This document shows positions 15,813-60,603 of a stretch of 64,000 bases of DNA, piece after piece. The position numbers and the translations under genes are program-made. Below the pieces are notes generated by a model. That model saw only the letters and a program-made list of their open reading frames with translations, ran no database searches and was not told where the DNA came from. The stretch spans positions 1-64,000 of IMG/VR virus record IMGVR_UViG_3300021961_007606; one strand, given 5' to 3'. The first letter of the stretch is position 1, and each line of letters starts with the position of its first letter. The stretch comes from a virus.

Positions 15813-17530
15813 TGTATATTTTTTAATTCACCAGGAATAAACTTACCATCAGCATCTAAGGATGCTACAACTTTAGGTTCATGGTATTCGTTTGGATCTG
15901 TAAACACTTCTAGTACACACGGACCTTCTTGAGATAAAAATTCATTTAGTGTAGGTTGAATTGCGCTATTTGAATTAATACTCATATAAGGTAGTTCATA
16001 TGCTTTAATAACTTTTTCAAATTTAGGAAAAGATACTCCACTATTTTTTTCAGATGCAACAAACCTTCCATCAAAAAAAGCTTTTTGAGATATCTTGATT
16101 GATGTATAACCATCGTTATTTAGTAGTATTAGCTTAATAGGTAGGTTATAGTGCTTCATTGTTTGAAGTTCGTGTATATTAAGATGAAGACTGCCATCAC
16201 CTTCTAAACATATAATTTTATGATGAGAAGCTGCTCCTAATGCAGCTGGTAGTCCATATCCCATTGGAGCACATCCAGTATTTGTTACGAGTCTTTGATC
16301 TCCATGCAAATCCAACACCTGCATTGTAACTACATTAGCTGATCCATCACTTGTGACAATATGATGATCGCTTGGCATTACTTTTGATAGCTCTTCAATA
16401 AAAGCATAATGACTAACATAGTCACCATTTTCCCTATGCCTCTGTAGCACCCTTGGTGATGTTGCTTTGAGATCATTACAAAAATCTATCCAACTTCTGC
16501 TAGCTACTGGTAACTCTGAACTTAAAATAGCTTCAAGAAACTCTTTAGCATCTGATTGAATCTTCAGGTCTGTAAACAAGGTTGGCTTATCCAATTCAGC
16601 TCTATCCACATCAACATGAACTTTATATGCTTGTTGAGCAAATCCTTTAAAATTGTATCCTGTTTGTCTTACATACAATCTAGTACCAACAGCTATAACA
16701 AAATCACACTCACTCAATAGTTTATTTGCACAGATTTGAGCATGCGTACCAAATCTACCATAATACTGACTATAATCTTCATTTACTAAGTCGTTACCAT
16801 TAACAGCTGATATAACTGGGATACTGGTCTTGGTTAGTGTCTTGTGCAGTTGTTCAACTCCACCACTCAATCTAATACCATTACCAACAATCATTAAAGG
16901 CTTCTTTGCACTTTTCCACTTTTCTAGCAAAGTATTGATATCAGTTGACATTGGTCTGTGTATAAATTTAGGATCCACATAACCTTCTAGCATTTGTGGA
17001 TTGATGTCAGCTGATTGCACATTGAGAGGTATGTCTATCCACACTGGACCAGGTCTTCCTGTAATTGCAAGCTTACAAGCTTTTTCCAAATGATATCTAA
17101 TCTGCGATGGATCATTTACTTGTACAGCATACTTAGTCATGTTCTTCACCGATTCAACAATGTTAAACTCCTGATCACCAAGCTGCCTCAAAGGTAGTTT
17201 AGTATAGTCTGTGGTCATTTCTTTGTTAACCTGACCACTAACAACTATGACTGGAATAGAATCTAACCAGCTACACAAAGTACCTGTAATTGCGTTAGTA
17301 CCTCCTGGACCACTTGTTACTACACAAGCTCCAAGTTTATTATTCATACGAGCATAGCCTTCTGCTGCTATTGCAGCTGCCTGCTCGTGGTGGGTTGCTA
17401 CATACTTAACTCCTTCGGTATGTCCTAAGGAATCTATCAAAAATATACAACCTCCACCGGATACGGTGAAGATGGTATCGAGCTTGTATTCATCCCTTAA
17501 AAACTGAATAACATAATCAGATACTTTCAT
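15800..17530 (-). CDS. ThDP-dependent enzyme (acetolactate-synthase-like, YerE-type candidate)
   Basis: A 576-residue full-length three-domain ThDP enzyme. The cofactor-activating Glu lies in THHEQAAAIAAEGYAR (about 47-62); GPGGTNAITG follows; the ThDP/Mg site is EGDGSLHLNIHELQ with LLNNDGY (about 437-470). Relatives join a two-carbon unit from pyruvate to an acceptor. Within a sugar cluster containing RfbH, a YerE-like role, adding a branch to a 4-keto-3,6-dideoxy sugar, is more likely than branched-chain amino acid synthesis. The exact substrate is inference. Confidence 0.8.
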   Translation of the reverse strand: MKVSDYVIQFLRDEYKLDTIFTVSGGGCIFLIDSLGHTEGVKYVATHHEQAAAIAAEGYARMNNKLGACVVTSGPGGTNAITGTLCSWLDSIPVIVVSGQVNKEMTTDYTKLPLRQLGDQEFNIVESVKNMTKYAVQVNDPSQIRYHLEKACKLAITGRPGPVWIDIPLNVQSADINPQMLEGYVDPKFIHRPMSTDINTLLEKWKSAKKPLMIVGNGIRLSGGVEQLHKTLTKTSIPVISAVNGNDLVNEDYSQYYGRFGTHAQICANKLLSECDFVIAVGTRLYVRQTGYNFKGFAQQAYKVHVDVDRAELDKPTLFTDLKIQSDAKEFLEAILSSELPVASRSWIDFCNDLKATSPRVLQRHRENGDYVSHYAFIEELSKVMPSDHHIVTSDGSANVVTMQVLDLHGDQRLVTNTGCAPMGYGLPAALGAASHHKIICLEGDGSLHLNIHELQTMKHYNLPIKLILLNNDGYTSIKISQKAFFDGRFVASEKNSGVSFPKFEKVIKAYELPYMSINSNSAIQPTLNEFLSQEGPCVLEVFTDPNEYHEPKVVASLDADGKFIPGELKNIQWLS

Positions 17531-37698: not shown

Positions 37699-37735
37699 TT
37701 TATAAATGACCCCCTCTAGGAGGGACATTTATAAA
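37699..37735. repeat. Long inverted repeat at the polA stop codon
   Basis: Arms tttataaatg and catttataaa (perfect) enclose a second stem CCCTC-TAG-GAGGG. It overlaps the TAA of the DNA polymerase gene (37729-37731). It may end polA transcription or stabilise the 3' end; a U-run is lacking. Confidence 0.65.
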
Positions 37736-39951
37736 TGCCCCGCACCAAAATCACTTGCAATATTTGGTTCAGCAATCAGCCCAGTTGCAATCTTTACAGT
37801 ATTTTCCATGTGATGTTTTACAATCCTTGACACTTCCTCAGCAATTTCTTCCTTTGCATTTACAACAAACTCATCATGGATTTGTAACATGATATATGCA
37901 TCCAATCCTCTTTCTTTAAACTCTTTGTGTATTGCTATGGCAGATCTATTCATAATAGAAGCTGCTAGTGACTGTATTTGAAAGTTTTTAGAGTTGTTCA
38001 AACCATTCTTATACTCCATCCGCAGTTGCATTAGTTTATTTGTTTGCTCTACACTTTTGCACATTCCTTTCATCATTTTAAAAGCTTGTGGATGTAGCAA
38101 GTTATCTTCAAACTTTTCATAGATAGCTTTTACACGATCCAAGTGACGAATCCTACCAGTCTTATTTTTAATAAAACCAAATGCTTGCACTCTAAGGTGG
38201 GTATCACTCATCCATTTTGCTAACTCAGGGAACCCTTCAAGATACCCATCAATTAGCTTTTGAGCTTCTCTAATATCAATATCAAGACTCTTACTGATCT
38301 GCCAAGCACCAGCACCATATGGAATCGCAAGTGCAATTCCTTTTGCCCTCTGCCTCAGTTCCGGTCTCATTGTTTTAACAAAGTTAGGATCTTTCTTTTT
38401 AGCTGAAAGTCCTTTAAGTTTAAAAGCTTGTATCGCTACCCTGCTATACAAATCCTCATTTTCTAAGAATACATTAATTAGGTTTGGGTCATTACTAACA
38501 GAAGCAAACACTCGAGGTTCTAGAGAAGATTGGTCACATATAATAAGCTTACGACCATTCTCGGCTTTTAGGAAACTGCGCAAAATGTTGTTGTATTTTA
38601 AAACTAAATCACTCACCTCACCCTGTTCCAATACACGAGGCATTTGCTGACAATCAGAGCTAAACCTACCACTAGTTGTTCCATGTTGGCGGAAGTACCA
38701 ATAATACCTACCATTCTCATTACCATCGACAAAGCGGTCAATATAGGCACTATTGATTTTAATAAGTTTGTTATAATCCCTCAGCTTTGCAGCCCAATCA
38801 TGCTTCTTTCCTAAATGCTCTATCATGTCATCATCAAACTGATCTGTACCCTTACGAGTTTGACTGAGAGGCTTGATCTTCATGTATTTAAAAACAATAT
38901 CCGATAGTTGCTTCTTGCTACTGATGTTTATGTAGTTTCCTTCACTCTCTTTCCATAATTCCAAACTAACTTTATACTTTAACTCCTCAGTTAAATCATT
39001 CACATCTCCACTAATCAAAAAGAGGGAATTAGGGTCATGTTGTTTAAGTCGTTCTGCATACTTTCCTCTTTTCTTAGGAGGAAAGTTTTGTATAGCTTTT
39101 ACCATCACCCACTCCTTTACGGCTGGAATTGTTAACATGCTGGCTATGATGTCCTGCTCTAGTTGTATCAGCTCAGCATTGATGTTTTTCTTAGTTTCAA
39201 GAATAAGATTCATGTCTAACTCTGTACCAACTTCTTCCATCTGAATGGTTACAGTTTTGTAAAGTGGCATGACTTCGTCAACAAAAAAGAAGTCCCACAA
39301 CTCCTGCTCTTTTAGTATTGGAAGATAGTGAGTCATTACACGAAGAGTTAAATCAGTATCCGCTGCAGCATATTGACCTAACAACTGCATGTCTGCTTTA
39401 AAGATCTCATAGTTTTCTTTGCTGACACTACCACCATTCCTTTTAATGTTCTCTTTCATAAGGACCTGCTCTTCATTAGCTTCTTTCTCAGCATTGATAC
39501 CAAGCTCAGCTTGCAACTCAATTGCAATATCTTTTAAACCAAAAGGACCATCCTCTTTAAGAGTGTGACGTAGTAACATTGTATCACAATACAAGTCCTC
39601 TCTAAGATCTATACCATAAAAGTTTTTAGTAAATCGGATATCAAAAGATCCGTTATGCATTATCAGCTTCTTGCCTTTGAGCATTCCGATAAGCTGTTTA
39701 GCAATATCGTCACAGCTCTTGCTGCCTATAAAAGAATCTACCAAAGCTTGTTGTTCGGGATTCCAAATACGAGTGGGAAAGTAGTAACCCTCATTCAAGT
39801 TTGCTGAAACTGAAAAACCAATGATCATCCCAGTTCTTGGATTGATGCTTGTGGTTTCAATATCATACGCGATTATGTTACCATTCTTAATGTAATTAGC
39901 CAGCTCTACGACCCCAGCCTGGTCCGTTATGATCTTATAACTTTTTTCCAT
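37729..39951 (-). CDS. polA: Family A DNA polymerase with 3'-5' exonuclease
   Basis: 740 residues from the ATG at 39951. Exonuclease motif I is IAYDIETT (about 28-35), with MHNGSFDIRF and a later AADTDLT as motifs II/III. In the polymerase domain: HGTTSGRFSSDCQQMP, motif A ICDQSSLEPRVFA (Asp about 473), motif B RQRAKGIALAIPYG (Lys about 537), motif C LQIHDEF. The residue equivalent to E. coli Phe762 is Leu, a known viral PolA variant. It lacks a 5' nuclease domain, which is separate at 52276-53316. Probably the replicative polymerase. Confidence 0.95.
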   Translation of the reverse strand: MEKSYKIITDQAGVVELANYIKNGNIIAYDIETTSINPRTGMIIGFSVSANLNEGYYFPTRIWNPEQQALVDSFIGSKSCDDIAKQLIGMLKGKKLIMHNGSFDIRFTKNFYGIDLREDLYCDTMLLRHTLKEDGPFGLKDIAIELQAELGINAEKEANEEQVLMKENIKRNGGSVSKENYEIFKADMQLLGQYAAADTDLTLRVMTHYLPILKEQELWDFFFVDEVMPLYKTVTIQMEEVGTELDMNLILETKKNINAELIQLEQDIIASMLTIPAVKEWVMVKAIQNFPPKKRGKYAERLKQHDPNSLFLISGDVNDLTEELKYKVSLELWKESEGNYINISSKKQLSDIVFKYMKIKPLSQTRKGTDQFDDDMIEHLGKKHDWAAKLRDYNKLIKINSAYIDRFVDGNENGRYYWYFRQHGTTSGRFSSDCQQMPRVLEQGEVSDLVLKYNNILRSFLKAENGRKLIICDQSSLEPRVFASVSNDPNLINVFLENEDLYSRVAIQAFKLKGLSAKKKDPNFVKTMRPELRQRAKGIALAIPYGAGAWQISKSLDIDIREAQKLIDGYLEGFPELAKWMSDTHLRVQAFGFIKNKTGRIRHLDRVKAIYEKFEDNLLHPQAFKMMKGMCKSVEQTNKLMQLRMEYKNGLNNSKNFQIQSLAASIMNRSAIAIHKEFKERGLDAYIMLQIHDEFVVNAKEEIAEEVSRIVKHHMENTVKIATGLIAEPNIASDFGAGHL

Positions 39952-39974
39952 ACTATAACAATACAAAATAAAAA

Positions 39975-46008: not shown

Positions 46009-47799
46009 TTAAAGCTTTTTAAGCTCTTGAACTTCAATCCGAATTTCGGATCCACTAAATCGAAACACTAACCTTGTAGCATACTTCTTATCACCCATGG
46101 TTGTTGTGTAGGCTAGTAAAAAACCAGATTGTCCTACTGAATCGACTAGTCGTATTTTTGAAGTCTTCGTATCAATATCTATCTTTACTTTTGAGTCAAA
46201 GAAATCAGCGTGTGCATTATTAAGGCTTCGAGCATTACCAATAGCTTTCCAAAAGCTTGGAGAAATGCCAGCTTGTGCAATTGCAAATGCAGTTAATGCA
46301 ACAAATGGATTTGATACTTCTTGAATCTTTTTATATGCTGGAGATATCTTAGCATTTTTATCTACCCAGCGATCCATAATAATTGAAGCTAGTTCGTATG
46401 CTGCTTGTTTCTTAGATAGGACAGATACTGGCTCTTCGTTTTCTTTTTGAATAGCTTTTGCAAATTGAGCACTACTTTCAGCCGACACTTCAATTTTATA
46501 TTTTTTGAGATCTTTTAAAAACTCTTCCCTACTTTTTATGAAAGAACTCTCTACTTGCTTTACAGAATCTTCTCCTCCAACTTGCTTTTTGATTTTTGCA
46601 ACAGCTTTTTGTAAGTCGTTAAAAATAGCTTTGTTTGCTTTATAAAAGCCCTTCTCATCTTTAACAAACTTAATATCACTAGTCTTGCGTGTAGGTAATC
46701 CTGCAGCTTGGAGTATAGTGTTGATAGAGCCGTGTATTTTATCATCCTTAGAAATGGCGTTAATAAAGCTCTGTGGTCTTTTTGCCTTTCCTATAAGATA
46801 ATCTTCAAATCGTGAAATCTTTGCAGAAAGTTTTGCTAGGTTTTTGTTTTCTGAAGTTCCATATTTTTCATTGGGGTCAATGTTGGCCTGGAATGTATTA
46901 GAAAATACTGTCTGTGCAAAAGTTGTTGCCTTTCCAGCTTGTGCTTTTTCTTCTTTTAAAGAAATCGCAACAATACCATTATTTTCTAAAAACTGAGCAT
47001 TTAGACTATCTTTACCGATGTTTAACGTTTCTGCTGCTAAAGCTTTTTTATCAGCTCCAGAGCTTACAACAAGATACACATCTCCAGGACACCAATTATC
47101 TGGAAGAAGGTTTATTTTAAATTCACTTTTTATTAAACTGGAAGCCAACGCTCGTATGCCTTCAAAAGTTTGATCTCGGATTATTCTTCCTTGAGATGAT
47201 ATTTCTGTGTGAATGACCTGAGCTGCTGAAGCGGCGTTTGTTAAGGTATCAAGCTCTTGCTTTGACGATAATACATATAATATGTAAGCATCCAAATTAA
47301 GAGGCATAGACTTTCCAACTCCATAAAATTTTAAATTACTCTTATATACAGCTTTTAGTTTAGCTCCAAATCCTACCAATAGTTTTTTATCTATAGGTGC
47401 TTTTTTATCGGAGGCTTGAGCATGTAGTGTTTGAAAACTCTTTGCGAGTGTGGAGTTCTTGAAAAGATCATAGAATAGGCACACTAAGCCTTCTTTTAAA
47501 GAAGTATCGTTTGTTCCTGTATTTGGTCTTGCAATTTCTGCTATCGCTAAAGACTCTACTAAACCCAATCCTCTCTTTTGCAAAATCTCATTAAGAATGC
47601 TGATTTCGCTAGCTTCACTAAAAACTCCATCCACCATAGTGGGATAACCTTTTGGTAGTCTATAAGACCACTCTTCTACAATCTCAGTAAAGTCAGCTAA
47701 TACTTCTGCTGAAGCTTCCTGCACTTGTTGAGGAACACTCTCTTGAGGTCCTTCTAAAATTGCGTTTAAATCTATTTCCTTAGAAATATCGTTCTTCAT
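46009..47799 (-). CDS. Large protein of unknown function
   Basis: 596 residues with no recognised enzyme motif. Acidic N-terminus (DLNAILEGPQESVPQQVQE), a recurring aquatic-phage-like segment VEEWSYRLPKGYPTMVDGVF (about 41-60), a long mixed alpha/beta middle and a C-terminal beta domain (RLVFRFSGSEIRIEVQEL). It overlaps the ferritin gene by 20 bp. A virion or DNA-transactions role cannot be decided. Confidence 0.6.
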   Translation of the reverse strand: MKNDISKEIDLNAILEGPQESVPQQVQEASAEVLADFTEIVEEWSYRLPKGYPTMVDGVFSEASEISILNEILQKRGLGLVESLAIAEIARPNTGTNDTSLKEGLVCLFYDLFKNSTLAKSFQTLHAQASDKKAPIDKKLLVGFGAKLKAVYKSNLKFYGVGKSMPLNLDAYILYVLSSKQELDTLTNAASAAQVIHTEISSQGRIIRDQTFEGIRALASSLIKSEFKINLLPDNWCPGDVYLVVSSGADKKALAAETLNIGKDSLNAQFLENNGIVAISLKEEKAQAGKATTFAQTVFSNTFQANIDPNEKYGTSENKNLAKLSAKISRFEDYLIGKAKRPQSFINAISKDDKIHGSINTILQAAGLPTRKTSDIKFVKDEKGFYKANKAIFNDLQKAVAKIKKQVGGEDSVKQVESSFIKSREEFLKDLKKYKIEVSAESSAQFAKAIQKENEEPVSVLSKKQAAYELASIIMDRWVDKNAKISPAYKKIQEVSNPFVALTAFAIAQAGISPSFWKAIGNARSLNNAHADFFDSKVKIDIDTKTSKIRLVDSVGQSGFLLAYTTTMGDKKYATRLVFRFSGSEIRIEVQELKKL

Positions 47800-48957: not shown

Positions 48958-50817
48958 CTACTTTACTTCACATGCACCACCTGCACAAGCAGCTTGTTCT
49001 TTTAAAGCTGTATTGTCTTCCAACTCAATAACTTTAGATAAGTCAACAGTGTGTAGGTATTTCATCATTTCTTCATATTTTTCTTTTGTACAATCTTCAA
49101 AAGGAGCTTGTGTATAAGATCCTCCATCGTATGGTAATACTGAAAGTCCATTATAGTGTTCACGGTTTTCCCACATCCATTCACCAGCAATTTCCCATTC
49201 TTCTGCTTTAAGTGATACTGTAGCAGATACATTGTGAGTATTGTTACCGGTTCTATGTCCAGGTTTAACCCATTCCAAGTGTACTTTTTTAATACGATCC
49301 AATAACTGAAATGGTGATTCTGTACGCAAGATAGCTCCTTCTGGGGCTTTTTGAGGTATGGAAATAACTGCAGTATCGTGAGGACGGAAATACTCATCCT
49401 CTACAAGTTCAGGGTGATTAATAGCTAAGTATGAATATATTGCTTCATTCTTACCAACACGAATACGACGAATATAATAGTCATTGTGCCAAGCATGAAT
49501 ACCACTTGAAGTACCTAAAGTAAGAGAAGTAGTACCAGCAGGCTTAACTGTAGTTGTACGAGCAGATTTGTTAATACCAATTAGATTAGCTACACGTTCG
49601 TTTTCTTTTTTAACTACATTTGCAGCTTCTTTCATGTTATAGCCTAACACTACACCAGATCCAATACCAGTCATGGAAACTCCAATAAGAGCTTCTTTTT
49701 CAGTTGTACGCTTCCATACATCACGAAGATAATGAAAGTCTGTATAACCAGCTTGCAATGTACCAATGAACGCAGCTGCTTTTACACGAGCATTCAAGTC
49801 TTCTTGTGATTCAATATCACTTACATTTACTTCACAAAGATTACAAAATTGGAATGGACGTAGTGCAATTTCACAACATGGATTAGTACCCCAGTCTTTA
49901 TCGTTTGTTAAATAGATACCAGGCTCTCCAGCACCACTTAACTCAACACGCTTCCAAAGATCCATGAAGAATTCTTTAGTTACTTTGTGACGAAGTAATA
50001 CTGCTGAGTTGTTTGCACGACCACGCTGTGGATTGTTTTCCCACCAAGCACCTGACTTACAAGCAATCATTTCTTCATCATCTGCACTAAACAAAGATAT
50101 TAAAGCTGCACGACGTATACCACCAGCTAATACTGCATCAGCAACGTGACATACCATATCGTGTACTTCGATTGATGAAAGTTTATCACCATCTTCTTTT
50201 GAATCTAAAATACCTTGAACTTTTACTAAACACTCTTTAAGAGGTTGAGGTCCTGGAGCTTTACCACCTGAAGTGATTAAACGAGCACCTTTTGGACGTA
50301 TATCTGAAAAATCAAACTCAATCTGAGAGCCACCAGTAAAGTAACTCTTAACAAGAGCTTTAACTGCATCTGCCCAACCCTCAATACTATCTGCAATTAA
50401 GAAACGCTTGTGACGTTTAGGGTTTGGCTTTCTAATCTCAGGCAAGCTTTCTACATGATGCTTTTGTACTGAGTAACCTACTCCTGTACCACCTAATAGT
50501 AAAAACATTGTTTCACCAAAAGCACGTACATCATCAATAGGCAAATAAGCACAATTGTAAATACGATTAGGACTAATTTCAATAGGCTTTCCAGCAAACT
50601 GCATGGACCTCATCGAAGGTAAAACCTTTTTGTCATACACCATCTTGTATACTTCTTCAATCTCTTCAACAAGATTAGGAAACTTTTTAAGATGCATGTT
50701 TTTGTTTCGTGTTACTAATTCTTCCCAAGTTTCGCGACGTTGAAGCTCTGGAATGTACTTTGCGTACTTCATAAAGACGGTGATCTCACTCAAGATCTCA
50801 TTCGATATTGTCATCAT
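48958..50817 (-). CDS. nrdJ: Adenosylcobalamin-dependent (class II) ribonucleotide reductase
   Basis: 619 residues, the size of monomeric class II enzymes. SMRSMQFAGKPIE and RIYNCAYLPIDD give the first redox Cys (about 89); NPCCEIALRPFQFCNLCEVN (about 318-337) holds the radical Cys region; PAGTTSLTLGTSSGIH is the substrate phosphate site; the end CAGGACEVK carries the C-terminal shuttling Cys pair. It reduces NTPs to dNTPs with B12 from the host. It has no NrdB partner here. TATTTATA at 50851-50858 precedes it. Confidence 0.93.
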   Translation of the reverse strand: MMTISNEILSEITVFMKYAKYIPELQRRETWEELVTRNKNMHLKKFPNLVEEIEEVYKMVYDKKVLPSMRSMQFAGKPIEISPNRIYNCAYLPIDDVRAFGETMFLLLGGTGVGYSVQKHHVESLPEIRKPNPKRHKRFLIADSIEGWADAVKALVKSYFTGGSQIEFDFSDIRPKGARLITSGGKAPGPQPLKECLVKVQGILDSKEDGDKLSSIEVHDMVCHVADAVLAGGIRRAALISLFSADDEEMIACKSGAWWENNPQRGRANNSAVLLRHKVTKEFFMDLWKRVELSGAGEPGIYLTNDKDWGTNPCCEIALRPFQFCNLCEVNVSDIESQEDLNARVKAAAFIGTLQAGYTDFHYLRDVWKRTTEKEALIGVSMTGIGSGVVLGYNMKEAANVVKKENERVANLIGINKSARTTTVKPAGTTSLTLGTSSGIHAWHNDYYIRRIRVGKNEAIYSYLAINHPELVEDEYFRPHDTAVISIPQKAPEGAILRTESPFQLLDRIKKVHLEWVKPGHRTGNNTHNVSATVSLKAEEWEIAGEWMWENREHYNGLSVLPYDGGSYTQAPFEDCTKEKYEEMMKYLHTVDLSKVIELEDNTALKEQAACAGGACEVK

Positions 50818-50884: not shown

Positions 50885-52252
50885 TTACTTAATTAAATTG
50901 TTTAATTCTGCAAATTTATTTGATAAAGCTTTGCGTATCACTTCACTCTCATTCTGCATCAAACTCTTAGCTTCTTTACCCATCACAGTTGTTTCTGCAA
51001 AGATGTCTATCTTCGCTGTTGCCATGTTCATCTTACTTGGAAATGTTAATCCATCAGGTCCAAACCTATTTTTAATCACATGCCATCTACCAGTACCAGA
51101 GATTTTATCTGCTGTCTTTCTTGACAATGACACTACAAAGTCAGCAACCATTACCTTGGCATATGACTCTGCAATTTTATCAGCTTCAATGATATCCTCT
51201 TCCAAAGCTGATCTATTAGCTTGAGATGCTGTATACAATGGTACTTGGTATGTACCAGCTAAACCTCTCAACTCTTCATATATGTTACCCAACATGATAT
51301 CATTACGAACAGCTCCTTTAACTCCAGTGTCTCTTAACAAATCTGCATAGTCAAGAAGTATAACATCAGGTTTTACTCCTTGCATTATACATTTATCAAT
51401 ATGTGCAGCTATTGTATTTACACTTGCTGTTTTAGTTGGATAGTATTTAATAATCAATTTTCCTTTTACATTTTTCAAAGTCTCAACAACTTCTTCTTGA
51501 TGAAACTTTAAATCTTGTGATGGTATTCCTGTATAGTGAGAATCAAATCGAGCTCCTACATAAGTCTCTGAAAGCTCTAATGTATAATAGATTACATTCA
51601 ATCCTCTCTTTGCTGCATGTGCTGCTATGTTTACTAAAGCCATTGACTTACCAATACCAGCAGGTGCTACAAACACACCCATCTCACCAGTACCTAATCC
51701 ACCATCCATAATCTCATTAACAACATCCCATGGAGTTGGAATAGTATTACGTTTGTTCTCTACAAAGCGCAGTGCAATATCATCTATATACTCATGACCG
51801 ATGTTTCTATCTGAACCAGCTTTCATAGCATCGTCAATGCTAAGCTTGATCTCATCATACTTACCCGACTTTAGTAACTCAACAGATTTTAGGATTGCTC
51901 CTTTAATCTTTTGGTTTTTACAAAACTCCAAAGTCTTATCCTTAACAAACTGGAAATCCTCAGACTCTGCGAATCTTAAAACCTCTTTAATGTTTTCTAT
52001 GATTGTTGTTTTTAGTACATCAACATCAACTTGATCTACATAAATCTTTAATGCCTCTAAAGTTGGAGGTGATTTATACTGATCAAAATACTTTAAAATT
52101 GTTTTTGCAATCCACTGACTTGACTCAGATGAAAAGTATTTTGGATCTATTATATCGTGTACTTGTTGAAGGAAAACTCTATCCTTAATCAGAACAGCTA
52201 ATACTTTGTTCTGAAACCCTGTCCCATAAAACTGTAATGTGTCTCCTTGCAT
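50885..52252 (-). CDS. dnaB: Replicative DNA helicase (DnaB/gp41-like)
   Basis: 455 residues. An N-terminal helical domain as in DnaB, then a RecA-type core: Walker A VAPAGIGKSMALVNIAAHAA (about 204-223), VIYYTLELSE, Walker B VKPDVILLDYADLL (about 301-314), and LYTASQANRSA (motif H4). It unwinds the fork as a hexamer and should work with the family A polymerase. Primase is not seen in the window. Confidence 0.92.
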   Translation of the reverse strand: MQGDTLQFYGTGFQNKVLAVLIKDRVFLQQVHDIIDPKYFSSESSQWIAKTILKYFDQYKSPPTLEALKIYVDQVDVDVLKTTIIENIKEVLRFAESEDFQFVKDKTLEFCKNQKIKGAILKSVELLKSGKYDEIKLSIDDAMKAGSDRNIGHEYIDDIALRFVENKRNTIPTPWDVVNEIMDGGLGTGEMGVFVAPAGIGKSMALVNIAAHAAKRGLNVIYYTLELSETYVGARFDSHYTGIPSQDLKFHQEEVVETLKNVKGKLIIKYYPTKTASVNTIAAHIDKCIMQGVKPDVILLDYADLLRDTGVKGAVRNDIMLGNIYEELRGLAGTYQVPLYTASQANRSALEEDIIEADKIAESYAKVMVADFVVSLSRKTADKISGTGRWHVIKNRFGPDGLTFPSKMNMATAKIDIFAETTVMGKEAKSLMQNESEVIRKALSNKFAELNNLIK

Positions 52253-52275: not shown

Positions 52276-53316
52276 TCAATCTTCCAAGGCATGGCTGTCT
52301 AATTTATGAGTAATTTCTCTCAGCCACATCTCTACATTTTTAATAGCATTAGTCATCCGGTCTTCAATAAGCATGGAGTGAAATTTAATCTTTGCAAGTT
52401 TATTAACTTGTTGGTCAAGCATATCAATAATTTTCATTTTAGTACTCATATTGATATTGCTCACACTGAGTTGCACTACATCATAATACAATCTAATATC
52501 CGATTCAGCTTGTACAACTTTTTGATAAATCTTGGCTTTGTTTGTTGCAGCTAATTCTTTAGCGTATTCCATGAAACTATCTAAAGTCATTGCTTCTGTT
52601 GTAATCTTAGGAAACTTTTCAATTAAAGTCTTATCACCCACACCGTTTACTCCTGGAATGTTATCACTATCATCTCCAGTCAATGCTCTGTATAAAGCAA
52701 AGTTGCTTGGAGGTATTCCATACGTTTCCAACACATCATCTGTGTAAAACATCTTCTTTTTTGTTGGACTCCAAACGTGAGTTCGGTTATCCACTAGTTG
52801 CATAAAATCCTTATCCGAAGACATGATAAAGACTTGAGAATCTTTATGCAAAAGATAATCATTTGCAATATAAGCTACTACATCATCAGCTTCAGCACCA
52901 TCTACAACAATAGTACTAACTGGCATAATATCCAAGTACTCTGTTAATCTGACAAGTTGCTGTAACTGATTGTCTTGTTTGTCAACTGTAATAGCTCTGT
53001 TTAATCTTATCTTAACTTTTCTGTTTGCTTTGTAATCAGGGTATATTGATCTCCTGCGAGCAGATCCATCTTTGCCATCAAACACCACAACCACTCTTGT
53101 TGGATTGATTGCTTTGATAGCGTGACCTACACTCATTAGAAAACCTGATATGCCTCCCACATGCTCTCCATCTCCATTGAGAACAGGGCTTGCTGCATAA
53201 GCTCGTATAAAAGTGTTGAGGCCATCAACAACTAGAACCCTTGAGTTCTTTGTGACAGCCTCAACATTTTGTCGTAACTTAAGCTCGTTAATTAAAGCTT
53301 GATACTTGTTTACCAT
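52276..53316 (-). CDS. 5'-3' exonuclease (FEN / T4 RNase H-like)
   Basis: 346 residues: VLVVDGLNTFIRAYAAS (about 27-43), VVVFDGKDGSARRRSIYPDY, VDGAEADDVVAYIAND (about 138-153), FIMSSDKDFMQLV and GDDSDNIPGVNGVGDKT (about 211-227, the helix-hairpin-helix), giving the acidic metal ligands of the family. It removes RNA primers and flaps, supplying the activity missing from the PolA at 37729-39951. Confidence 0.93.
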   Translation of the reverse strand: MVNKYQALINELKLRQNVEAVTKNSRVLVVDGLNTFIRAYAASPVLNGDGEHVGGISGFLMSVGHAIKAINPTRVVVVFDGKDGSARRRSIYPDYKANRKVKIRLNRAITVDKQDNQLQQLVRLTEYLDIMPVSTIVVDGAEADDVVAYIANDYLLHKDSQVFIMSSDKDFMQLVDNRTHVWSPTKKKMFYTDDVLETYGIPPSNFALYRALTGDDSDNIPGVNGVGDKTLIEKFPKITTEAMTLDSFMEYAKELAATNKAKIYQKVVQAESDIRLYYDVVQLSVSNINMSTKMKIIDMLDQQVNKLAKIKFHSMLIEDRMTNAIKNVEMWLREITHKLDSHALED

Positions 53317-54464
53317 TAATCTAGTAATTCTCCATCATCTATTGATATTTCATCTGGATTGATCTCGTCTTGTTTACGATACTTCATCACAAATATATCA
53401 CAGATTTTTTTATAACAATAATCTTTAAGGTTTGAATCTTCGGTTAGCATACCTCTCCAATCCTTAGATTGAAAACGTATTTCTTCACCCGTGTCCTCAT
53501 TTACTAATGTATAGTAAGCTCCTGATTGTTTCAAGACACCGTAGTCTTTCATTAAGGATAGCCAACTATTGAAATCATCAATACCTGAGCTAAAGTAAAT
53601 GTCAAAGGTAGCTTTTTTGAAAGGAGGTCCCATACGATTTTTAATTACTTGAGCTTCTGTTTGTACTCCAATAATTTGTTCAGTCTTTCCTGTACCACTC
53701 TTTAGTTTACCTACTCCCTTTAGCCTGATACGACAACTTGCATGAAATCCTAATGCCTTACCACCAGAGGTTGTATATTTGTCACCAAACATTACACCCA
53801 TCTTTTCACGAAGCTGTGATGTACAGATCAACAATACTCTTTGCTTTGCAATGATATTAGTAATCTTACGCATAGCTTTTGACATTAAGATAGCTTTTGA
53901 AGTTGCCCAACCATCCTTATCATAGTCAGCATCTTGTTCTATCTTAGTTGTAGCTGCTGATACTGAATCTAATGCTATTGTTACCAATCTATTTTTAGAA
54001 CTCTTACGAACCGTCTCAATGATATTTTCAACAGCTTCAAAAGCATCTTCAATAGTTTCTAATGGAACATAAAGCATATTTGCAACATCAACTCCTACAG
54101 CTGTTAAGAACTCTTCACTTAAAGCGTTCTCAGTATCAATATACACTGCTAAACCACCCTTCTTCTGAGTATTTGCCAATGAATGTGCTACAATCAAACT
54201 CTTACCGGAAGCTTCCATACCTTGCAACTCAACTATACGACCTACTGGAAATCCTCCATTTGGTCTATTTGATATTGCCAAATCCAACAAAGTAGATCCT
54301 GTTCCAACCCACTCTGTTAAATCTGTTGGTGTTTCTTCTTCTCCACTTAGGAAATGAGCAGCCTTAAAATCCTTAAATTGTTTATTGAGACTATCCGCTA
54401 ACAATGATGCCAGCTCGTCCCGTCCTGATATTTCATCAGGTGTTGTTTTAGCCTGCTTTGCCAT
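53316..54464 (-). CDS. uvsX: RecA/UvsX-like recombinase
   Basis: 382 residues: GFPVGRIVELQGMEASGKSL with Walker A (about 71-90), LAVYIDTENAL, VTIALDSVSAA as Walker B (about 160-170), LICTSQLREKMGVMFGDK, and TTSGGKALGFHAS as the L2-like loop. The order of motifs matches RecA; the divergence and phage context favour a UvsX role in strand exchange and recombination-dependent replication. One-base overlap with the 5' nuclease gene. Confidence 0.93.
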   Translation of the reverse strand: MAKQAKTTPDEISGRDELASLLADSLNKQFKDFKAAHFLSGEEETPTDLTEWVGTGSTLLDLAISNRPNGGFPVGRIVELQGMEASGKSLIVAHSLANTQKKGGLAVYIDTENALSEEFLTAVGVDVANMLYVPLETIEDAFEAVENIIETVRKSSKNRLVTIALDSVSAATTKIEQDADYDKDGWATSKAILMSKAMRKITNIIAKQRVLLICTSQLREKMGVMFGDKYTTSGGKALGFHASCRIRLKGVGKLKSGTGKTEQIIGVQTEAQVIKNRMGPPFKKATFDIYFSSGIDDFNSWLSLMKDYGVLKQSGAYYTLVNEDTGEEIRFQSKDWRGMLTEDSNLKDYCYKKICDIFVMKYRKQDEINPDEISIDDGELLD

Positions 54465-54469
54465 AACTC

Positions 54470-55243
54470 TTATGAATTAAAAAGTGAATCAAATGCTGAT
54501 GAAATGTCTTCAGACTTTGTAGCTGTAGTAGCTCCTGTAATAGGTTTACTTGCAGTTTGCTTAGTACCATCTTCTGATGATGGATCTAACCATTTTTGTA
54601 AAGCCTCAGTCATTTCTTCATACGAAGATTCAGTAAAGAGTTCTTTAAGATTCTTTTGATTGTTTACAATCTTGTCAGCGATTTCCTTATCGGTTGTAGC
54701 TGGAGATGTGTTTGGTTTTACACGTACTGTGAAAGTTGGAAATGCTCCTTCTTTTTCAGCAGCAATGTGCTCAACAGTTAGGTCACGACCATTCATTAAA
54801 TCTGTGATATCTCCATAATCAGGATCAGCTATTACACTAAGAAGCTCAGTGAATATCTGTTTACCAAAAGACCAAAACTTAACACCTTCATGTTCTTGCC
54901 CACGTACAATAACTGGAGCATAAACACGAAACTTAGGTTCGATCTTTTTACCTAATTTCCAATCATCTTTATCACCAGACTTTTTAAGTTTTTCTGCAAA
55001 CTCTACAATAGGATCTGGACGTCCAAAGGACATCGGTGATACCATTGTACGCTTACCAATTTCATAGTGAAAGTATAATTCTTGGAATGGATTGTTTTTG
55101 TCGAATGCGTAGGGTACAATACGTACTTGTGATTTTCCTACTGGTGGTTTCCAAATGAAGTCGCTTGACTTGCTACCACCGCCTGAACTGGCTTGTTGCA
55201 TTTGTTGTAACTTTGCTTTGATTGCATCTAGGTTGATTGCCAT
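54470..55243 (-). CDS. Single-stranded DNA-binding protein (gp32-like)
   Basis: 257 residues. An N-terminal helix (INLDAIKAKLQQMQQ), then an OB-like core with KSQVRIVPYAFDKNNPFQEL and a conserved-looking YFHYEIGKRTMVSPMSFGRP, and an acidic tail ending SSAFDSLFNS as in gp32-type proteins, where it binds partner proteins. There is no visible zinc motif. It lies beside recA and follows a promoter candidate. Confidence 0.8.
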   Translation of the reverse strand: MAINLDAIKAKLQQMQQASSGGGSKSSDFIWKPPVGKSQVRIVPYAFDKNNPFQELYFHYEIGKRTMVSPMSFGRPDPIVEFAEKLKKSGDKDDWKLGKKIEPKFRVYAPVIVRGQEHEGVKFWSFGKQIFTELLSVIADPDYGDITDLMNGRDLTVEHIAAEKEGAFPTFTVRVKPNTSPATTDKEIADKIVNNQKNLKELFTESSYEEMTEALQKWLDPSSEDGTKQTASKPITGATTATKSEDISSAFDSLFNS

Positions 55244-55283
55244 TTTTACTTGTTTTTAATTGTTAAACTTACTTGACTTTATT

Positions 55284-55312
55284 ACTATAGGGATCTTTTT
55301 TCTTACTTGCAA
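55284..55312 (-). promoter_or_regulatory. Candidate promoter of the ssDNA-binding protein gene
   Basis: Minus strand TTGCAA, 17 bp, TATAGT, 41 bp before the ATG at 55243. It lies in a 118-bp gene-free spacer, where a promoter for the replication block is expected. Confidence 0.45.
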
Positions 55313-55361
55313 CTATGTGCTAAACTTCCCTGGACTAGTCTCTTTAGTTTCTTGCCTAAAC

Positions 55362-55742
55362 TTAATGGGCTAATTCTTTTATTGTTATGGTTTTGTATGA
55401 TTCTTCTCCTTCTGAAAGTAGTAATGTATCTTTGTACTGAGCCCAGTCGATAATATAAGTCTTATCGAGAACTCCATTATTTAATATACGAATTAAATTG
55501 TTAAGAGCATTAATACTGTAGAAGGTATTTGTTTCTTTTTTTCTATTTATTGATATTGTGTTTTTTAATCTACGTTCGGTTGTGTCTACGTTATACACAC
55601 AAATAACATGATTTGGTGTAGCTACGTAAGAGTAACATTTTAAATTGCTTACTGCTATGGCTGTATAGGCTGCGTATATCTCTCCCAAGCTAGAAGGAAG
55701 CCTATCCAAATAAGTAAATGTACATAGAAGTTGAGGTCTCAT
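55362..55742 (-). CDS. Protein of unknown function
   Basis: 126 residues: a Tyr- and Ser-rich N-terminal half with beta strands (SYVATPNHVICVYNVDTTER), then SINALNNLIRILNNGVLDKT and a short C-terminal helix. It overlaps the coiled-coil gene by 4 bp. It looks like a small alpha/beta protein without catalytic motif. Confidence 0.6.
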   Translation of the reverse strand: MRPQLLCTFTYLDRLPSSLGEIYAAYTAIAVSNLKCYSYVATPNHVICVYNVDTTERRLKNTISINRKKETNTFYSINALNNLIRILNNGVLDKTYIIDWAQYKDTLLLSEGEESYKTITIKELAH

Positions 55743-55975
55743 TTTTGATCTACTTGAGCAGACTGTGCTTTTTTTAAAGCGTCTTCGGCACCTTTTAGTG
55801 CAATCTTTTTAGCTTCAATATCTGCTTGTTTGGCTTTTACTGTCGCCTGCTTTTCTTTATCGCTAAGTTCCGAAACCTCTTCTTTATCTTCAGACCCTAC
55901 TAAGGCTTTGCGAATTGCTTCTTTGAATAATTTGTAATCTAAAGCGGAATAGTCAATGCTGTTATCAGACGCCAT
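55739..55975 (-). CDS. Small Lys/Ala-rich coiled-coil protein
   Basis: 78 residues; the C-terminal 50 form a long Ala/Lys-rich helix (KQATVKAKQADIEAKKIALK). Probably an oligomerising helper; function unknown. Directly follows the second polymerase gene in transcription order. Confidence 0.6.
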   Translation of the reverse strand: MASDNSIDYSALDYKLFKEAIRKALVGSEDKEEVSELSDKEKQATVKAKQADIEAKKIALKGAEDALKKAQSAQVDQK

Positions 55976-56006: not shown

Positions 56007-57311
56007 TTAGCAAAGTGTTAAATTTTTATAAGTAGTTCCTTTCTTCACTTTTATAGGATACTTTTGCATATCAATGCTTTGTGGTATTATTTCAGTAGTT
56101 AGTTTTGCAAATTCTGTTTCTGGTAAGTCAAACAAAATACTATCATAGGTGTACAATACTGGCACACATTGCATGTCTTTTGATTTTTCCAATATGTTTT
56201 TAAGCACTATTACATTTGTTTCAGTCTCATACATCTGTATAAAGTAGTTAAACAATACGTAACAGTTTATATCCTGGTAATTGCTTATTACCAGTCTTCT
56301 ACCTGATATTGGACTTTCTATATGCCCTTCATCTTGTATTTTATTCCATAAGTAGTGAGCTAAGTTGTTTGTCTTTTCAAAGAATGGAATATGAAGATAT
56401 TGCTGTTGTATACCACCATAGAGCTGTCTAAAAGTAGCTTCTTTTGCTTTTTCTATTTCTTCTTTACTTGGTGTTGGTGTGTTTGCATAATAGGTTGCTA
56501 AATGCTCATACACATTATCATCACCAAAGTCATAACCTACCAATGAAGCAATTAATCGAGGATGGTAAGAATTAAAATCCATTTCAACCAAGATACCATT
56601 TTCAAATCTAGATATAAAAGCATCCCTTGTGTTATCTTCTTTGTTTAAAGCTGCAAAGTTGATTCCACCAAAACGATTACTTGGCCTACCGGTTGTGGTA
56701 TAGTAGTTGTACTCGGTATAGCAATAATCTTTGCTTCTGCTAAAAGTCTTTCCAAAACGCTCAGCAAACAAACTTGGATCAACCTTTAGACCACTCTTTT
56801 CAATGTTATAGAATACATCCAGTAAATCGTTTTGATAAAAGCTAAGACCTGATTGTGATTCTTTTACCCAGCTTTCCTCAAAGATATTAAAAGCTATTTG
56901 CTCGTGCTTGTACAGAGATATAAGTTCGTTTATCTTATGACAGCTTTGAAAAGTTCTTGTATAGTGATTTACTATTCCAGGAGTTTCGTTGCTGTAACTC
57001 TGGTTTGTGTACAAGTAGTATTGCATCTTAACATCTACAAATTTAGATGTGTCATATCCCGCATACTTAAAAGACAAGCTATCGTAGCAATATACTTTAC
57101 ATGAATCTAAAAAGCTTAGATCACTACTATTGTATAGTCCTTCAGGATGCCCATTACTAAGAGTGTAACACTCGCGAGCCTCAATATCAACAAAAACAAA
57201 AGCAATGATGCTATTGTGGTGTCTATGCAGTCTATCATCCTTCAATATAGGATATGCAAAAACTGCTTTGTTTTGTAAAGCATAAAGTTGTTGCAGACTA
57301 TCTATAACCAT
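56007..57311 (-). CDS. Second, divergent family A DNA polymerase-like protein
   Basis: 434 residues. The palm is recognisable: YTTTGRPSNRFGGINFAAL (about 204-222, as T-x-T-G-R-x-S), motif A ILVEMDFNSYHPRLIASLVG (Asp245), motif B KEATFRQLYGG (Lys290, Phe294, Tyr298) and motif C VLYTYDSILFDL, where the usual His-Asp-Glu is Tyr-Asp-Ser. The N-terminal 160 residues could be a degenerate exonuclease domain but lack the D-I-E motif. It is much shorter than normal PolA and unlike the polymerase at 37729-39951. Role unknown: repair, priming or lesion bypass are possible. Confidence 0.78.
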   Translation of the reverse strand: MVIDSLQQLYALQNKAVFAYPILKDDRLHRHHNSIIAFVFVDIEARECYTLSNGHPEGLYNSSDLSFLDSCKVYCYDSLSFKYAGYDTSKFVDVKMQYYLYTNQSYSNETPGIVNHYTRTFQSCHKINELISLYKHEQIAFNIFEESWVKESQSGLSFYQNDLLDVFYNIEKSGLKVDPSLFAERFGKTFSRSKDYCYTEYNYYTTTGRPSNRFGGINFAALNKEDNTRDAFISRFENGILVEMDFNSYHPRLIASLVGYDFGDDNVYEHLATYYANTPTPSKEEIEKAKEATFRQLYGGIQQQYLHIPFFEKTNNLAHYLWNKIQDEGHIESPISGRRLVISNYQDINCYVLFNYFIQMYETETNVIVLKNILEKSKDMQCVPVLYTYDSILFDLPETEFAKLTTEIIPQSIDMQKYPIKVKKGTTYKNLTLC

Positions 57312-57342: not shown

Positions 57343-57909
57343 TCAAGCTAAAGTAAATCTAGCAAATTCAGTATAGTTTTTTACTGCGTACTGAACGCTT
57401 GGAGTTACTACTGATGCTTGTAATAGACTTAATTCATTATTTATTGTAATATCTTTTTGGTATCCTGTAAGTTGCCACTGTACAGCTGATGCGGCATAAA
57501 TACCTCCATCAATGCCACCTTTTTTGTTAATGTTGCGAAATTGTTTTTCATCTATTTCAATTGCATAGCTTTGATCATCGTTTATCTTTTCCACAAAAAA
57601 ACGAGTATCGTATCCAATCAAGTACGCTTGCTCTATCGGAGTATAAGCAAAATATACTGGTAAAGTAAACTGTAATACTTTTGGATTAAAGTTATACTGC
57701 TTATCATAAATGTAATGATCTTTGTTTGCATAATATCTTTGTAGTGGTAAAGCTTCTGGATCTACCACTGGACCAACTTTTGCAATGTTTCCGTCTAAGT
57801 GATACTCTCCTATGTACTCTATTCCATTTAAACTATACTCTTTACCCTTTGTATATAAATAAATGTTGTTATTTTTACGTACACCAAAACGACTTGTAAA
57901 TGTGGCCAT
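57343..57909 (-). CDS. Probable baseplate/tail protein
   Basis: 188 residues, beta-rich, starting TSRFGVRKNNNIYLYTKGKE. No enzymatic motif. It is the first of a run with LysM-like, hub-like and tape-measure genes, so a structural role is inferred from position and composition. Confidence 0.6.
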   Translation of the reverse strand: MATFTSRFGVRKNNNIYLYTKGKEYSLNGIEYIGEYHLDGNIAKVGPVVDPEALPLQRYYANKDHYIYDKQYNFNPKVLQFTLPVYFAYTPIEQAYLIGYDTRFFVEKINDDQSYAIEIDEKQFRNINKKGGIDGGIYAASAVQWQLTGYQKDITINNELSLLQASVVTPSVQYAVKNYTEFARFTLA

Positions 57910-57910
57910 G

Positions 57911-60310
57911 TTATTTAGGTTTTACTCGGGGTACTGTGTTTACTTGCATTGTCCAACCTTCTCCGGTGAGGCTGTGCTCAACAGATGTTATTTGCCAATT
58001 AAATTTTTCTCTGATTTCTTTTGGAATAAAATCTGTTGTTATTAGCTGTCCAAATCCAATACCACCAATTCCAAAATTAAAAGTCATAGTACATTCAACG
58101 GGCAATGGAACACCATCACAGTGTGGATGATTAGGATCTTCCATCATCTCTGCCATTTCTTTTTGTAAAAAATTTAAAGCATTGGTTACATTACTATCCG
58201 ATATCCCATTTTCCATACCCTCTTCCATAGCCACTCTAAAAGTTGTGAGTCTTGTTGTGTATGGGTCTTTATTTGCTTCTGGTGAATTTTTATCTGGACT
58301 GCATGGTTTAAGTTTTATGGGCTTTGAAGCTTTATTTAGGTCTGGATCGCTACCTCCCTGTACAACACTCCAAGCTCGTGCTGCTTTACCAGAACATGGA
58401 TTTTGCTTATCCGACATTCCTCCCGAATTACCTGGGTTGTATAGCGCTTGAGTTCGCATAGCTGATGTCATTTTCATATCCAGCTTTAAATCGCTTATGA
58501 TGCTGTTTTCTGGACGACTTGGAACTACAAAAGCTTCTGCTTTGTTTCCAGTATCGTTGTCTGTTGGTGTTGTTTTTACATCAACTACAGTAAGTTGCTC
58601 GTTGCTTTCATTTTCTGGTGTTTTTTTATCATCTGGTACTGGTGTGAGAATTAAGTCCCAATGGCTACCGGTTGCAGTACTAATTTCGCGCAGTACGCGA
58701 TCCATAAAAGTGTTAAGTTGAAAGTTACCAGTTTTAGGATTTTCAATTTCACCCAATACCCTTGTCAGCATCATTACATTAAGACGTATCTTGGATAATC
58801 TTACATACTTTTTATTACCAACTTGAACATACGCAGTCTTATCTTGGTAATAATTAAATCCCCCTTCTTCATCTAAAATATACTTTAACTCAGGAGCTCC
58901 TGGTATTAGGCAAACTCGAGGATCAACTGATTGTTGCAGCACATCTACGCTCTTACCTCTAATTACCGGAAGAAGGACTCCCTTACTCGATAAAATAGTT
59001 TGTTTAACATCGTCATCAGCATCAGATAAAACATATTTTGAAATTAAAGCTTCTAATACAGCAAAAGATATGTAAGTTTCAGTCACTCCTAGCTCAAGTG
59101 TTTCGGTAAAAAAGCTCTTAATACTGTTAATAATTCCACTAGTATTCCCACTTACTTCTCGAACTGGCCCTTCATATTGTTGAAATTCAACAAACATTTC
59201 AGCTGGGTTTTGTTTATATTTGCTTGCATTTGCTTTTAAATCCTCTAGCAATGCTTGTTGTTTTTCTACATCCAAAAGTGTTTGAGGTTTTTGCGGAGGT
59301 CCTCCTTGAGCGATACGCAACTCGTGAAGTCTTCTTTGTGCTTCAACTTGTGCTTGTGAATCCCCAACAGGAGCTGGTGTATTTTTTGCTAGAGTTGCAA
59401 GCTCTTGAAGCTTTGTATTTAATACAGAAACAAAAATATCTTCTTCCTTATTTTCTGTGTTGGTTGTTTTAAATCCAACTGACGGGCCCAATGATCCATC
59501 TGAGTTTTTACAAGGTTCAACCATTGGTTTTTCCATTTTACTCTCTGCAGCTGATATAATTTCCAAAGTACAAATCCAATATTGCGCACTCTCGAGTGTC
59601 CAGCTAAAGTTAGTCACTCTTCCTTGCAGACCATAATATAAACCTTTATTTTTTTCTACATGCTTTCGTATTACATCTGTAGCTTCTCCATCGGTAAGAG
59701 TGTCAGGTGCTTGAACTGGATAGGGGTTTGGATTACCTCCTGCATAATACCCCCACTCCACTCTTACACTCATCCCAGGAATAAAAAAACACTTTTGTAG
59801 TTGTGCCAATCCTTCGCCTACAGTACTTACTATAATCGTTATAGTGCATTTTGATGTTGTACCAAGCTCCCCTTGTTTTTGTACTTTAATATTGTCGATC
59901 ATAGGTTTTATGATCTTTTTAGATATCGTAATACGATTGCTACCAAAAGCACCTCCTGACCTGAGACCTGCATTTTCATCCAGAATAATATTAGTGTTTC
60001 CAGAAGTTGTTGCTGTTATAGTTTCAAACGGACTAACTTCGTTTGTACGAACACTCTGATCTATTCTTTGCAATGCGATAGCATCACGATCTTGTAATTG
60101 AGCACCTGTTGTTTTTTTATAAAAAGGAGTGCTAGATATGTAGTTACTTAAATTATTGTACTCCGATTCACATAACTTGGACATGCTTTTTAACTGAAAC
60201 CATATATTTTTAGCGCTGGTTGCAGCATTTAGTTTATCTACACTTCCCGCCAATTCCTTAAACCGTTCCTGCACAAACGGCGGTACATTTTTTGGTTGAA
60301 AAATACTCAT
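57911..60310 (-). CDS. Large baseplate hub-like structural protein
   Basis: 799 residues. The N-terminal 260 contain strands of the type seen in hub/tail-tip proteins (CTITIIVSTVGEGLAQLQKC, FFIPGMSVRVEWGYYAGG), a helical, Gln-rich middle (about 300-370), a central region with VRLSKIRLNVMMLTRVLGEI and a C-terminal domain ending LTGEGWTMQVNTVPRVKPK. The last 40 residues resemble the C-terminal strands of baseplate proteins. The exact T4 equivalent is not clear. Confidence 0.6.
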   Translation of the reverse strand: MSIFQPKNVPPFVQERFKELAGSVDKLNAATSAKNIWFQLKSMSKLCESEYNNLSNYISSTPFYKKTTGAQLQDRDAIALQRIDQSVRTNEVSPFETITATTSGNTNIILDENAGLRSGGAFGSNRITISKKIIKPMIDNIKVQKQGELGTTSKCTITIIVSTVGEGLAQLQKCFFIPGMSVRVEWGYYAGGNPNPYPVQAPDTLTDGEATDVIRKHVEKNKGLYYGLQGRVTNFSWTLESAQYWICTLEIISAAESKMEKPMVEPCKNSDGSLGPSVGFKTTNTENKEEDIFVSVLNTKLQELATLAKNTPAPVGDSQAQVEAQRRLHELRIAQGGPPQKPQTLLDVEKQQALLEDLKANASKYKQNPAEMFVEFQQYEGPVREVSGNTSGIINSIKSFFTETLELGVTETYISFAVLEALISKYVLSDADDDVKQTILSSKGVLLPVIRGKSVDVLQQSVDPRVCLIPGAPELKYILDEEGGFNYYQDKTAYVQVGNKKYVRLSKIRLNVMMLTRVLGEIENPKTGNFQLNTFMDRVLREISTATGSHWDLILTPVPDDKKTPENESNEQLTVVDVKTTPTDNDTGNKAEAFVVPSRPENSIISDLKLDMKMTSAMRTQALYNPGNSGGMSDKQNPCSGKAARAWSVVQGGSDPDLNKASKPIKLKPCSPDKNSPEANKDPYTTRLTTFRVAMEEGMENGISDSNVTNALNFLQKEMAEMMEDPNHPHCDGVPLPVECTMTFNFGIGGIGFGQLITTDFIPKEIREKFNWQITSVEHSLTGEGWTMQVNTVPRVKPK

Positions 60311-60312
60311 AA

Positions 60313-60603
60313 CTATTTATTTAAGTTTTGCAAATTTGTTAAGATTGCATTTATATTTCTAGGGATTCTAAGCTGCAATCCTGGCGGTATTGTGAAAGTT
60401 CCTTTGCCAAGTCCATTTGCTTCTGCTATTACCCACCAATAACTCACATCTCCATAGTAGTTGTAAGCAAGCAAATCTAGTCGATCGCCTGGTGTTGTAA
60501 TTACGTAAATATCGTCTACGCTTCGTGGAATTGGAGGATAAATAGTTGGCTTTGTTACCTGCCTATTATTGTCAGTTTTAGTGTATGTGTTTCTACTGCT
60601 CAT
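60313..60603 (-). CDS. LysM-like tail protein (gpX/gp53-like)
   Basis: 96 residues: YVITTPGDRLDLLAYNYYGD, VSYWWVIAEANGLGKGTFTI, PPGLQLRIP. The pattern of G-D-R-x-D-x-L-A-x-x-x-Y-G-D, W-W-x-I-x-x-x-N and P-x-G-x-x-L-x-I-P is that of LysM-containing tail proteins (P2 gpX) and T4 gp53, which join wedge or hub parts. Confidence 0.8.
   Translation of the reverse strand: MSSRNTYTKTDNNRQVTKPTIYPPIPRSVDDIYVITTPGDRLDLLAYNYYGDVSYWWVIAEANGLGKGTFTIPPGLQLRIPRNINAILTNLQNLNK

Follow-up and report, generated by a model that had tools for sequence, protein, structure and literature searches.

The divPolA1 family was named by Yutin et al. (2024, Virol J 21:200, PMC11348598) from 14 phages including Flavobacterium phage immuto, and, according to the passages of that paper devoted to it, divPolA1 phages encode a regular polymerase of family A, B or C as well. 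The AlphaFold2 models described there feature intact palm residues, a truncated thumb and an exonuclease-like domain in which all catalytic aspartates are replaced. The closest described counterparts are three further groups of A-family enzymes related to, yet distinct from, divPolA1: divPolA2 (AUR84708), the TV-Pol family of mobile elements (Iyer et al. 2008, PMC2579912), whose minimal polymerases lack nuclease domains and have been proposed to act as prim-pols, and the CCPol-MP primase of SCCmec (Bebel et al. 2020, PMC7581432; Rice 2023, PMC10061031), which resembles divPolA1 in combining a small A-family polymerase devoid of an exonuclease with a small protein encoded alongside it.

Here, we analyse a 64,000-nt stretch of DNA (hereafter the window), positions 1 to 64,000 of the 71.7-kb virus record IMGVR_UViG_3300021961_007606, in which an earlier note had reported a second, small and atypical family A polymerase. 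Profiles and alignment support that description, including the intact catalytic aspartates, and on the evidence of its sequence the protein (P0001) is a member of divPolA1, ordinary for the family and not new in kind. In common with the members described in the divPolA1 text of PMC11348598, from which it shows no essential difference, it has downstream replication genes, an additional regular polymerase, kept palm residues and a truncated thumb. The length of 434 residues and all individual residues named earlier are found in the window sequence as follows, and an ORF check found the plus strand of the same interval dense with stop codons.

56007-57311, minus strand: divPolA1, a 434-aa thumb-less family A polymerase-like protein with an ATG start, assigned from sequence and profiles
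56850-57311, minus strand: N-terminal domain of divPolA1 (about residues 1-154), called as an inactivated 3'-5' exonuclease fold from the AlphaFold2 models as described in the published divPolA1 text
56685-56699, minus strand: T-T-T-G-R, residues 205-209; Arg209 equals Pol I Arg668 and is invariant in 88 of 88 members
56550-56579, minus strand: motif A, DFNSYHPRLI, residues 245-254, with the catalytic Asp245 retained and His250 at the Pol I Glu710 position
56415-56444, minus strand: motif B, KEATFRQLYG, residues 290-299, with the Lys758, Phe762 and Tyr766 equivalents (Lys290, Phe294, Tyr298) retained
56139-56147, minus strand: motif C, Y389-D390-S391, replacing His881-Asp882-Glu883

As a single protein, the window divPolA1 reaches only 14.4 bits with PF00476, whose cut-off is 34.3, and it is family-level comparison that points clearly to homology with Pol I beyond chance: PF00476 is matched by 55 of 67 members at E-values up to 1, the best being 5.9e-14, a match of the family profile to Klenow has E=1.1e-9, and hhalign with a Pol I/T7/phage PolA profile yields 97.6% probability and E=2.6e-12 over residues 191-420. 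In the latter alignment, divPolA1 R209, D245, K290, F294, Y298, N355, Q359 and D390 correspond to Pol I R668, D705, K758, F762, Y766, N845, Q849 and D882, respectively, whereas Glu710, His881 and Glu883 are changed to His250, Tyr389 and Ser391. Compared with the Klenow fragment of E. coli Pol I, divPolA1 has a homologous palm and fingers, with Ser or Ala at the Glu883 position across the family and Arg754 not conserved, but the thumb is deleted and the exonuclease not recognisable. Indeed, the palm-helix Glu (171) and the TGR Arg are separated by 23-43 residues in divPolA1 (median 33) and by 127 in E. coli Pol I, which by alignment indicates that the thumb is gone, in agreement with the models as presented in the published divPolA1 text; the N-terminal domain gave no significant hhalign profile match to the exonuclease region.

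Among 50,697 phage records, near full-length matches to the window protein occur only in immuto records (gp001; tblastn E=6e-40 over 93% of the protein, about 30% identical along its length), while Microcystis phage Mel-JY01 and the 484-kb phage LR756508 give partial matches and both encode a full-length divPolA1. The remaining matches in these records are weak and apparently represent ordinary polymerases, and RM378, considered as a relative, has no divPolA1 match within its first 50 kb. A pattern scan recovered at least 574 relatives from viral contigs and 8 more from genome contigs, the latter all metagenome-assembled, so that a family scarce in phage records (immuto records, Mel-JY01 and one huge phage) is carried by hundreds of environmental viral contigs.

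Across an alignment of 88 members of at least 400 aa, Asp245, Asp390, Arg209, Lys290, Phe294 and Gln359 are invariant (88/88), with identities among the compared relatives as low as 26%; loss of the motif C aspartate, which the earlier note had named as a sign of a structural remnant, is thus not seen in any of them. The Glu710 position is His in 88/88 members, and H-D-E of motif C is replaced by Y-D-S/A. As the first scan patterns included both the gate His and YD[SA], with a possible ascertainment bias, the His was rechecked in 38 members collected via the neighbouring gene o126 (see below) rather than by polymerase motifs: it is present in 35/35 readable cases and Asp390 in 38/38, and the catalytic set is kept at readable positions, barring a few non-catalytic changes. 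Median dN/dS among relatives is 0.19 (about 0.05-0.3), indicating at the sequence level that divPolA1 is under purifying selection, and together with the conserved catalytic set this led us to reject a degenerate remnant. To the published account of the family, our analysis adds hundreds more contigs, the His found invariantly in place of Glu710, Y-D-S/A, the paired o126, the upstream tail genes and the co-occurring DnaG-type primase; the last five are absent from the text of PMC11348598 on divPolA1.

divPolA1 also differs from its counterparts. As reported in the corresponding part of PMC11348598, divPolA2 is likewise a second divergent PolA without a PolA-type thumb and lies beside a regular PolB, but its gene neighbourhood is variable, unlike that of divPolA1; it is not matched by the divPolA1 profile and, by eye, keeps the gate Glu (YDFKAFET) and has F-D-E in motif C, where divPolA1 has His and Y-D-S/A. 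TV-Pols possess a two-helix thumb, missing in divPolA1, and an RxxxK in the fingers, whose Arg is found in 22/88 divPolA1 members and is Ile in the window protein. They pair with a D5-type helicase and show no nuclease linkage, whereas divPolA1 has DnaB and FEN nearby.

The earlier note placed the gene next to recombination genes, and these are indeed close; they do not, however, directly adjoin it, as a 126-aa ORF intervenes before SSB, RecA/UvsX, FEN and DnaB.

60313-60603, minus strand: baseplate wedge-like protein (phrog_7145, E=1.8e-12)
57911-60310, minus strand: up799, upstream tail-block protein without a PHROGs assignment
57343-57909, minus strand: up188, immediately upstream of divPolA1 and syntenic
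55362-55742, minus strand: o126, a 126-aa protein found downstream of divPolA1 in all testable loci but one
54470-55243, minus strand: gp32-like single-strand DNA-binding protein (SSB)
53316-54464, minus strand: RecA/UvsX-like recombinase
52276-53316, minus strand: FEN / 5'-3' exonuclease with the fold of the Pol I 5' nuclease
50885-52252, minus strand: DnaB-like replicative helicase
48958-50817, minus strand: ribonucleotide reductase (RNR)

Read as far as each contig extends, 93 divPolA1 loci follow the order tape measure-like, up691, baseplate wedge, up799, up188, divPolA1, o126, SSB, RecA, FEN, DnaB and RNR, with every recognised gene on one strand in 93/93. The o126 gene is nearly always a neighbour: it is found in 80 of the 93 loci, and of the 13 others, 12 end within 2.3 kb downstream and one (L120) has only a 162-aa open frame of the polymerase; divPolA1 is in turn present in 51 of 69 new loci found through o126, the other 18 having less than 4 kb of upstream sequence. 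In immuto, whose host is Flavobacterium sp. LMO8, the o126 homologue is gp002. PDB profile and Pfam searches for the fold of o126 returned only chance-level matches. Pairwise distances of divPolA1 correlate with those of FEN (r=0.94), o126 (0.90) and SSB (0.83), which fits co-inheritance as a block.

The gap between divPolA1 and up188 has a median of 26 nt and that between divPolA1 and o126 a median of 1225 nt. Of the locus genes, only SSB is preceded by a clear enrichment of TAnnTTTG, a Bacteroidetes-type promoter motif (17/73 versus 4.7 in shuffles; the SSB-preceding stretch in the window is 55244-55361), and T4-type late promoters (TATAAATA) show no enrichment before any locus gene. Given the tight up188 spacing and the TAnnTTTG enrichment before SSB, divPolA1 may not be expressed with the replication genes and may instead be transcribed together with the tail-region genes; a Shine-Dalgarno sequence of its own is present in 1 of 84 loci.

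The interval downstream of divPolA1 also holds other reading frames. In the window, an ORF of about 78 aa (55739-55975, minus strand) sits in the gap from divPolA1 to o126 and overlaps the start codon of o126 with its own stop codon (ATGA), and similar small lysine/alanine-rich ORFs occupy the same place in L034 (5295-5540) and L003 (2523-2714). Homing-endonuclease-like ORFs (GIY-YIG-like and HNH-like by sequence) directly follow divPolA1 in L062 (11317-11955) and L071 (7194-7748), and in several loci the stretch from divPolA1 to o126 encodes a protein whose start resembles 'ILTEWSYRLPKGYPT' (L062 12003-13082, L049 11320-12546, L006 11043-12119).

The presence of two family A polymerases in one phage was previously regarded as unusual, which it is, although the situation has already been published as divPolA1, as the text of Yutin et al. 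(PMC11348598) on the family makes clear. The second enzyme of the window is encoded as follows.

37729-39966, minus strand: the regular PolA, full length at 745 aa; Leu occupies the Phe762 position, and the exonuclease motifs are intact

The exonuclease motifs read AYDIETTS, NGSFD and AAADTD, and the proposed contrast between the two proteins, Phe762 equivalent kept in divPolA1 and Leu in the main PolA (KGIALAIPYG), is confirmed; from the alignments, however, the selectivity residue that would deserve attention in divPolA1 is the His at the Glu710 position rather than Phe762. Among 14 divPolA1 phage records of at least 47 kb, 12 encode a full PolA or PolB. Homologues paired with a second, full PolA, which the earlier note had proposed to search for, occur in the window record, immuto, G012 and G014, and PolB is found in Mel-JY01, LR756508, G003, G004, G005, G007, G008 and G009. 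No full PolA, PolB or PolC was found in G010 (47 kb) and G013 (116 kb), and a regular polymerase lying on another contig, as in two metagenome-assembled genomes, was left out of the count. Furthermore, a DnaG-type (DnaG/gp61-type) primase is encoded in 8/8 divPolA1 records of at least 116 kb (immuto, Mel-JY01, LR756508, G003, G004, G005, G012 and G013); its absence from the window record and three other divPolA1 records below 72 kb is expected of fragments. Replacement of the primase is thus ruled out as a general explanation and a role as the phage's sole primase disfavoured, and the co-occurrence of both enzymes implies that divPolA1 replaces neither. The Mel-JY01 primase (L032 18020-19003) appears to be without most of the zinc-ribbon cysteines of its immuto homologue (L029 42446-43366).

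A repair, bypass or gap-filling role would best fit these data, and we give an about even chance to divPolA1 being an accessory polymerase of low processivity and without exonuclease, which would carry out short synthesis at intermediates of repair or recombination. By alignment, the protein retains the two-metal palm active site, the O-helix and the primer-grip residues but has lost the thumb and recognisable proofreading motifs. Without a thumb, it presumably cannot hold duplex DNA for long and would add few nucleotides per binding event; with proofreading also missing, it should be distributive. A partner (o126 and/or SSB) would probably keep it in position, and its sites of action would be gaps, or the recombination intermediates on which the neighbouring SSB, UvsX and FEN work. 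As FEN has the fold of the Pol I 5' nuclease, divPolA1 and FEN together resemble Pol I in separate pieces, a split set that would suit short gap filling at SSB/UvsX-coated intermediates. Klenow Glu710 helps to exclude ribonucleotides (PMC7581432), and its replacement by His predicts relaxed discrimination against them, so that divPolA1 is possibly ribonucleotide-tolerant and perhaps works with o126, whose near-obligate proximity makes it a concrete candidate partner. An active site without a thumb and without the ribonucleotide-rejecting Glu would in any case constitute a natural experiment on the capabilities of a minimal A-family polymerase.

The main rival to an accessory polymerase is that divPolA1 and o126 make RNA or mixed primers de novo in the manner of CCPol-MP, with o126 holding the single-stranded template, as a second specialised activity in, for example, origin use or recombination-dependent restart. 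A shorter last thumb helix has been proposed to set initiating A-family enzymes apart from Pol I (PMC7581432, PMC10061031), T7 RNA polymerase is likewise without both glutamates (Gly542, H-D-S) that divPolA1 has lost from its gate and its Y-D-S/A motif C, and a small protein adjoins divPolA1 in nearly every locus. However, CCPol itself retains Glu710 (PMC7581432) and a thumb, where divPolA1 has His in 88/88 members and no thumb, and CCPol shares an operon with the Cch2 helicase; the small partner in CCPol-MP is an OB fold that binds both ssDNA and the polymerase, while sequence searches relate o126 to no known fold. With the DnaG/gp61-type primase of all eight large records further weakening it, we consider de novo priming unlikely, if worth keeping in mind. 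Similarly speculative is a two-part enzyme of divPolA1 and o126 that, having lost sugar gate and thumb, would serve as a ribonucleotide-using initiator or patch synthesiser beside the normal primase and replicase; if true, it would represent a separate path by which family A passed from DNA to RNA synthesis. Lesion bypass, suggested by the lack of recognisable proofreading, the lost gate residue and an active site presumably opened by the missing thumb, overlaps the accessory-polymerase explanation and sits poorly with the kept Phe762 and Tyr766 equivalents, making it improbable as a dedicated function.

The conserved replication neighbourhood of divPolA1, set against the variable locations of the regular polymerases, is a point raised in the divPolA1 text of Yutin et al. 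(PMC11348598) that would make divPolA1 the main replicase, with the accessory part left to the regular polymerase of family A, B or C. Such a role is very unlikely for a protein without thumb or recognisable proofreading in phage records of up to 484 kb, around which replicases of two families swap and which, in the window, is accompanied by a regular PolA with intact exonuclease motifs. The tight spacing to up188 and the upstream tail-gene block, together with the lack of its own Shine-Dalgarno in 83/84 loci, could alternatively mean that the protein is catalytically dead, or a structural one associated with virions, and is co-expressed with the tail genes; yet both metal-binding aspartates, Arg209, Lys290 and Gln359 are invariant down to 26% identity, which is hard to explain without catalysis and renders this reading highly improbable.

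Finally, the gene content of the record resembles that of Flavobacterium phage immuto and Far-T4 phages. The record, which is probably a fragment, encodes GroEL, QueE, GTP cyclohydrolase, glycosyltransferases and the baseplate wedge-like protein, and its remaining part beyond the window carries a tail-sheath-like protein, so named by sequence. Among the large window proteins are one of 596 aa (46009-47799) and one of 576 aa (15800-17530) that matches phrog_11199 with E=1.2e-99.
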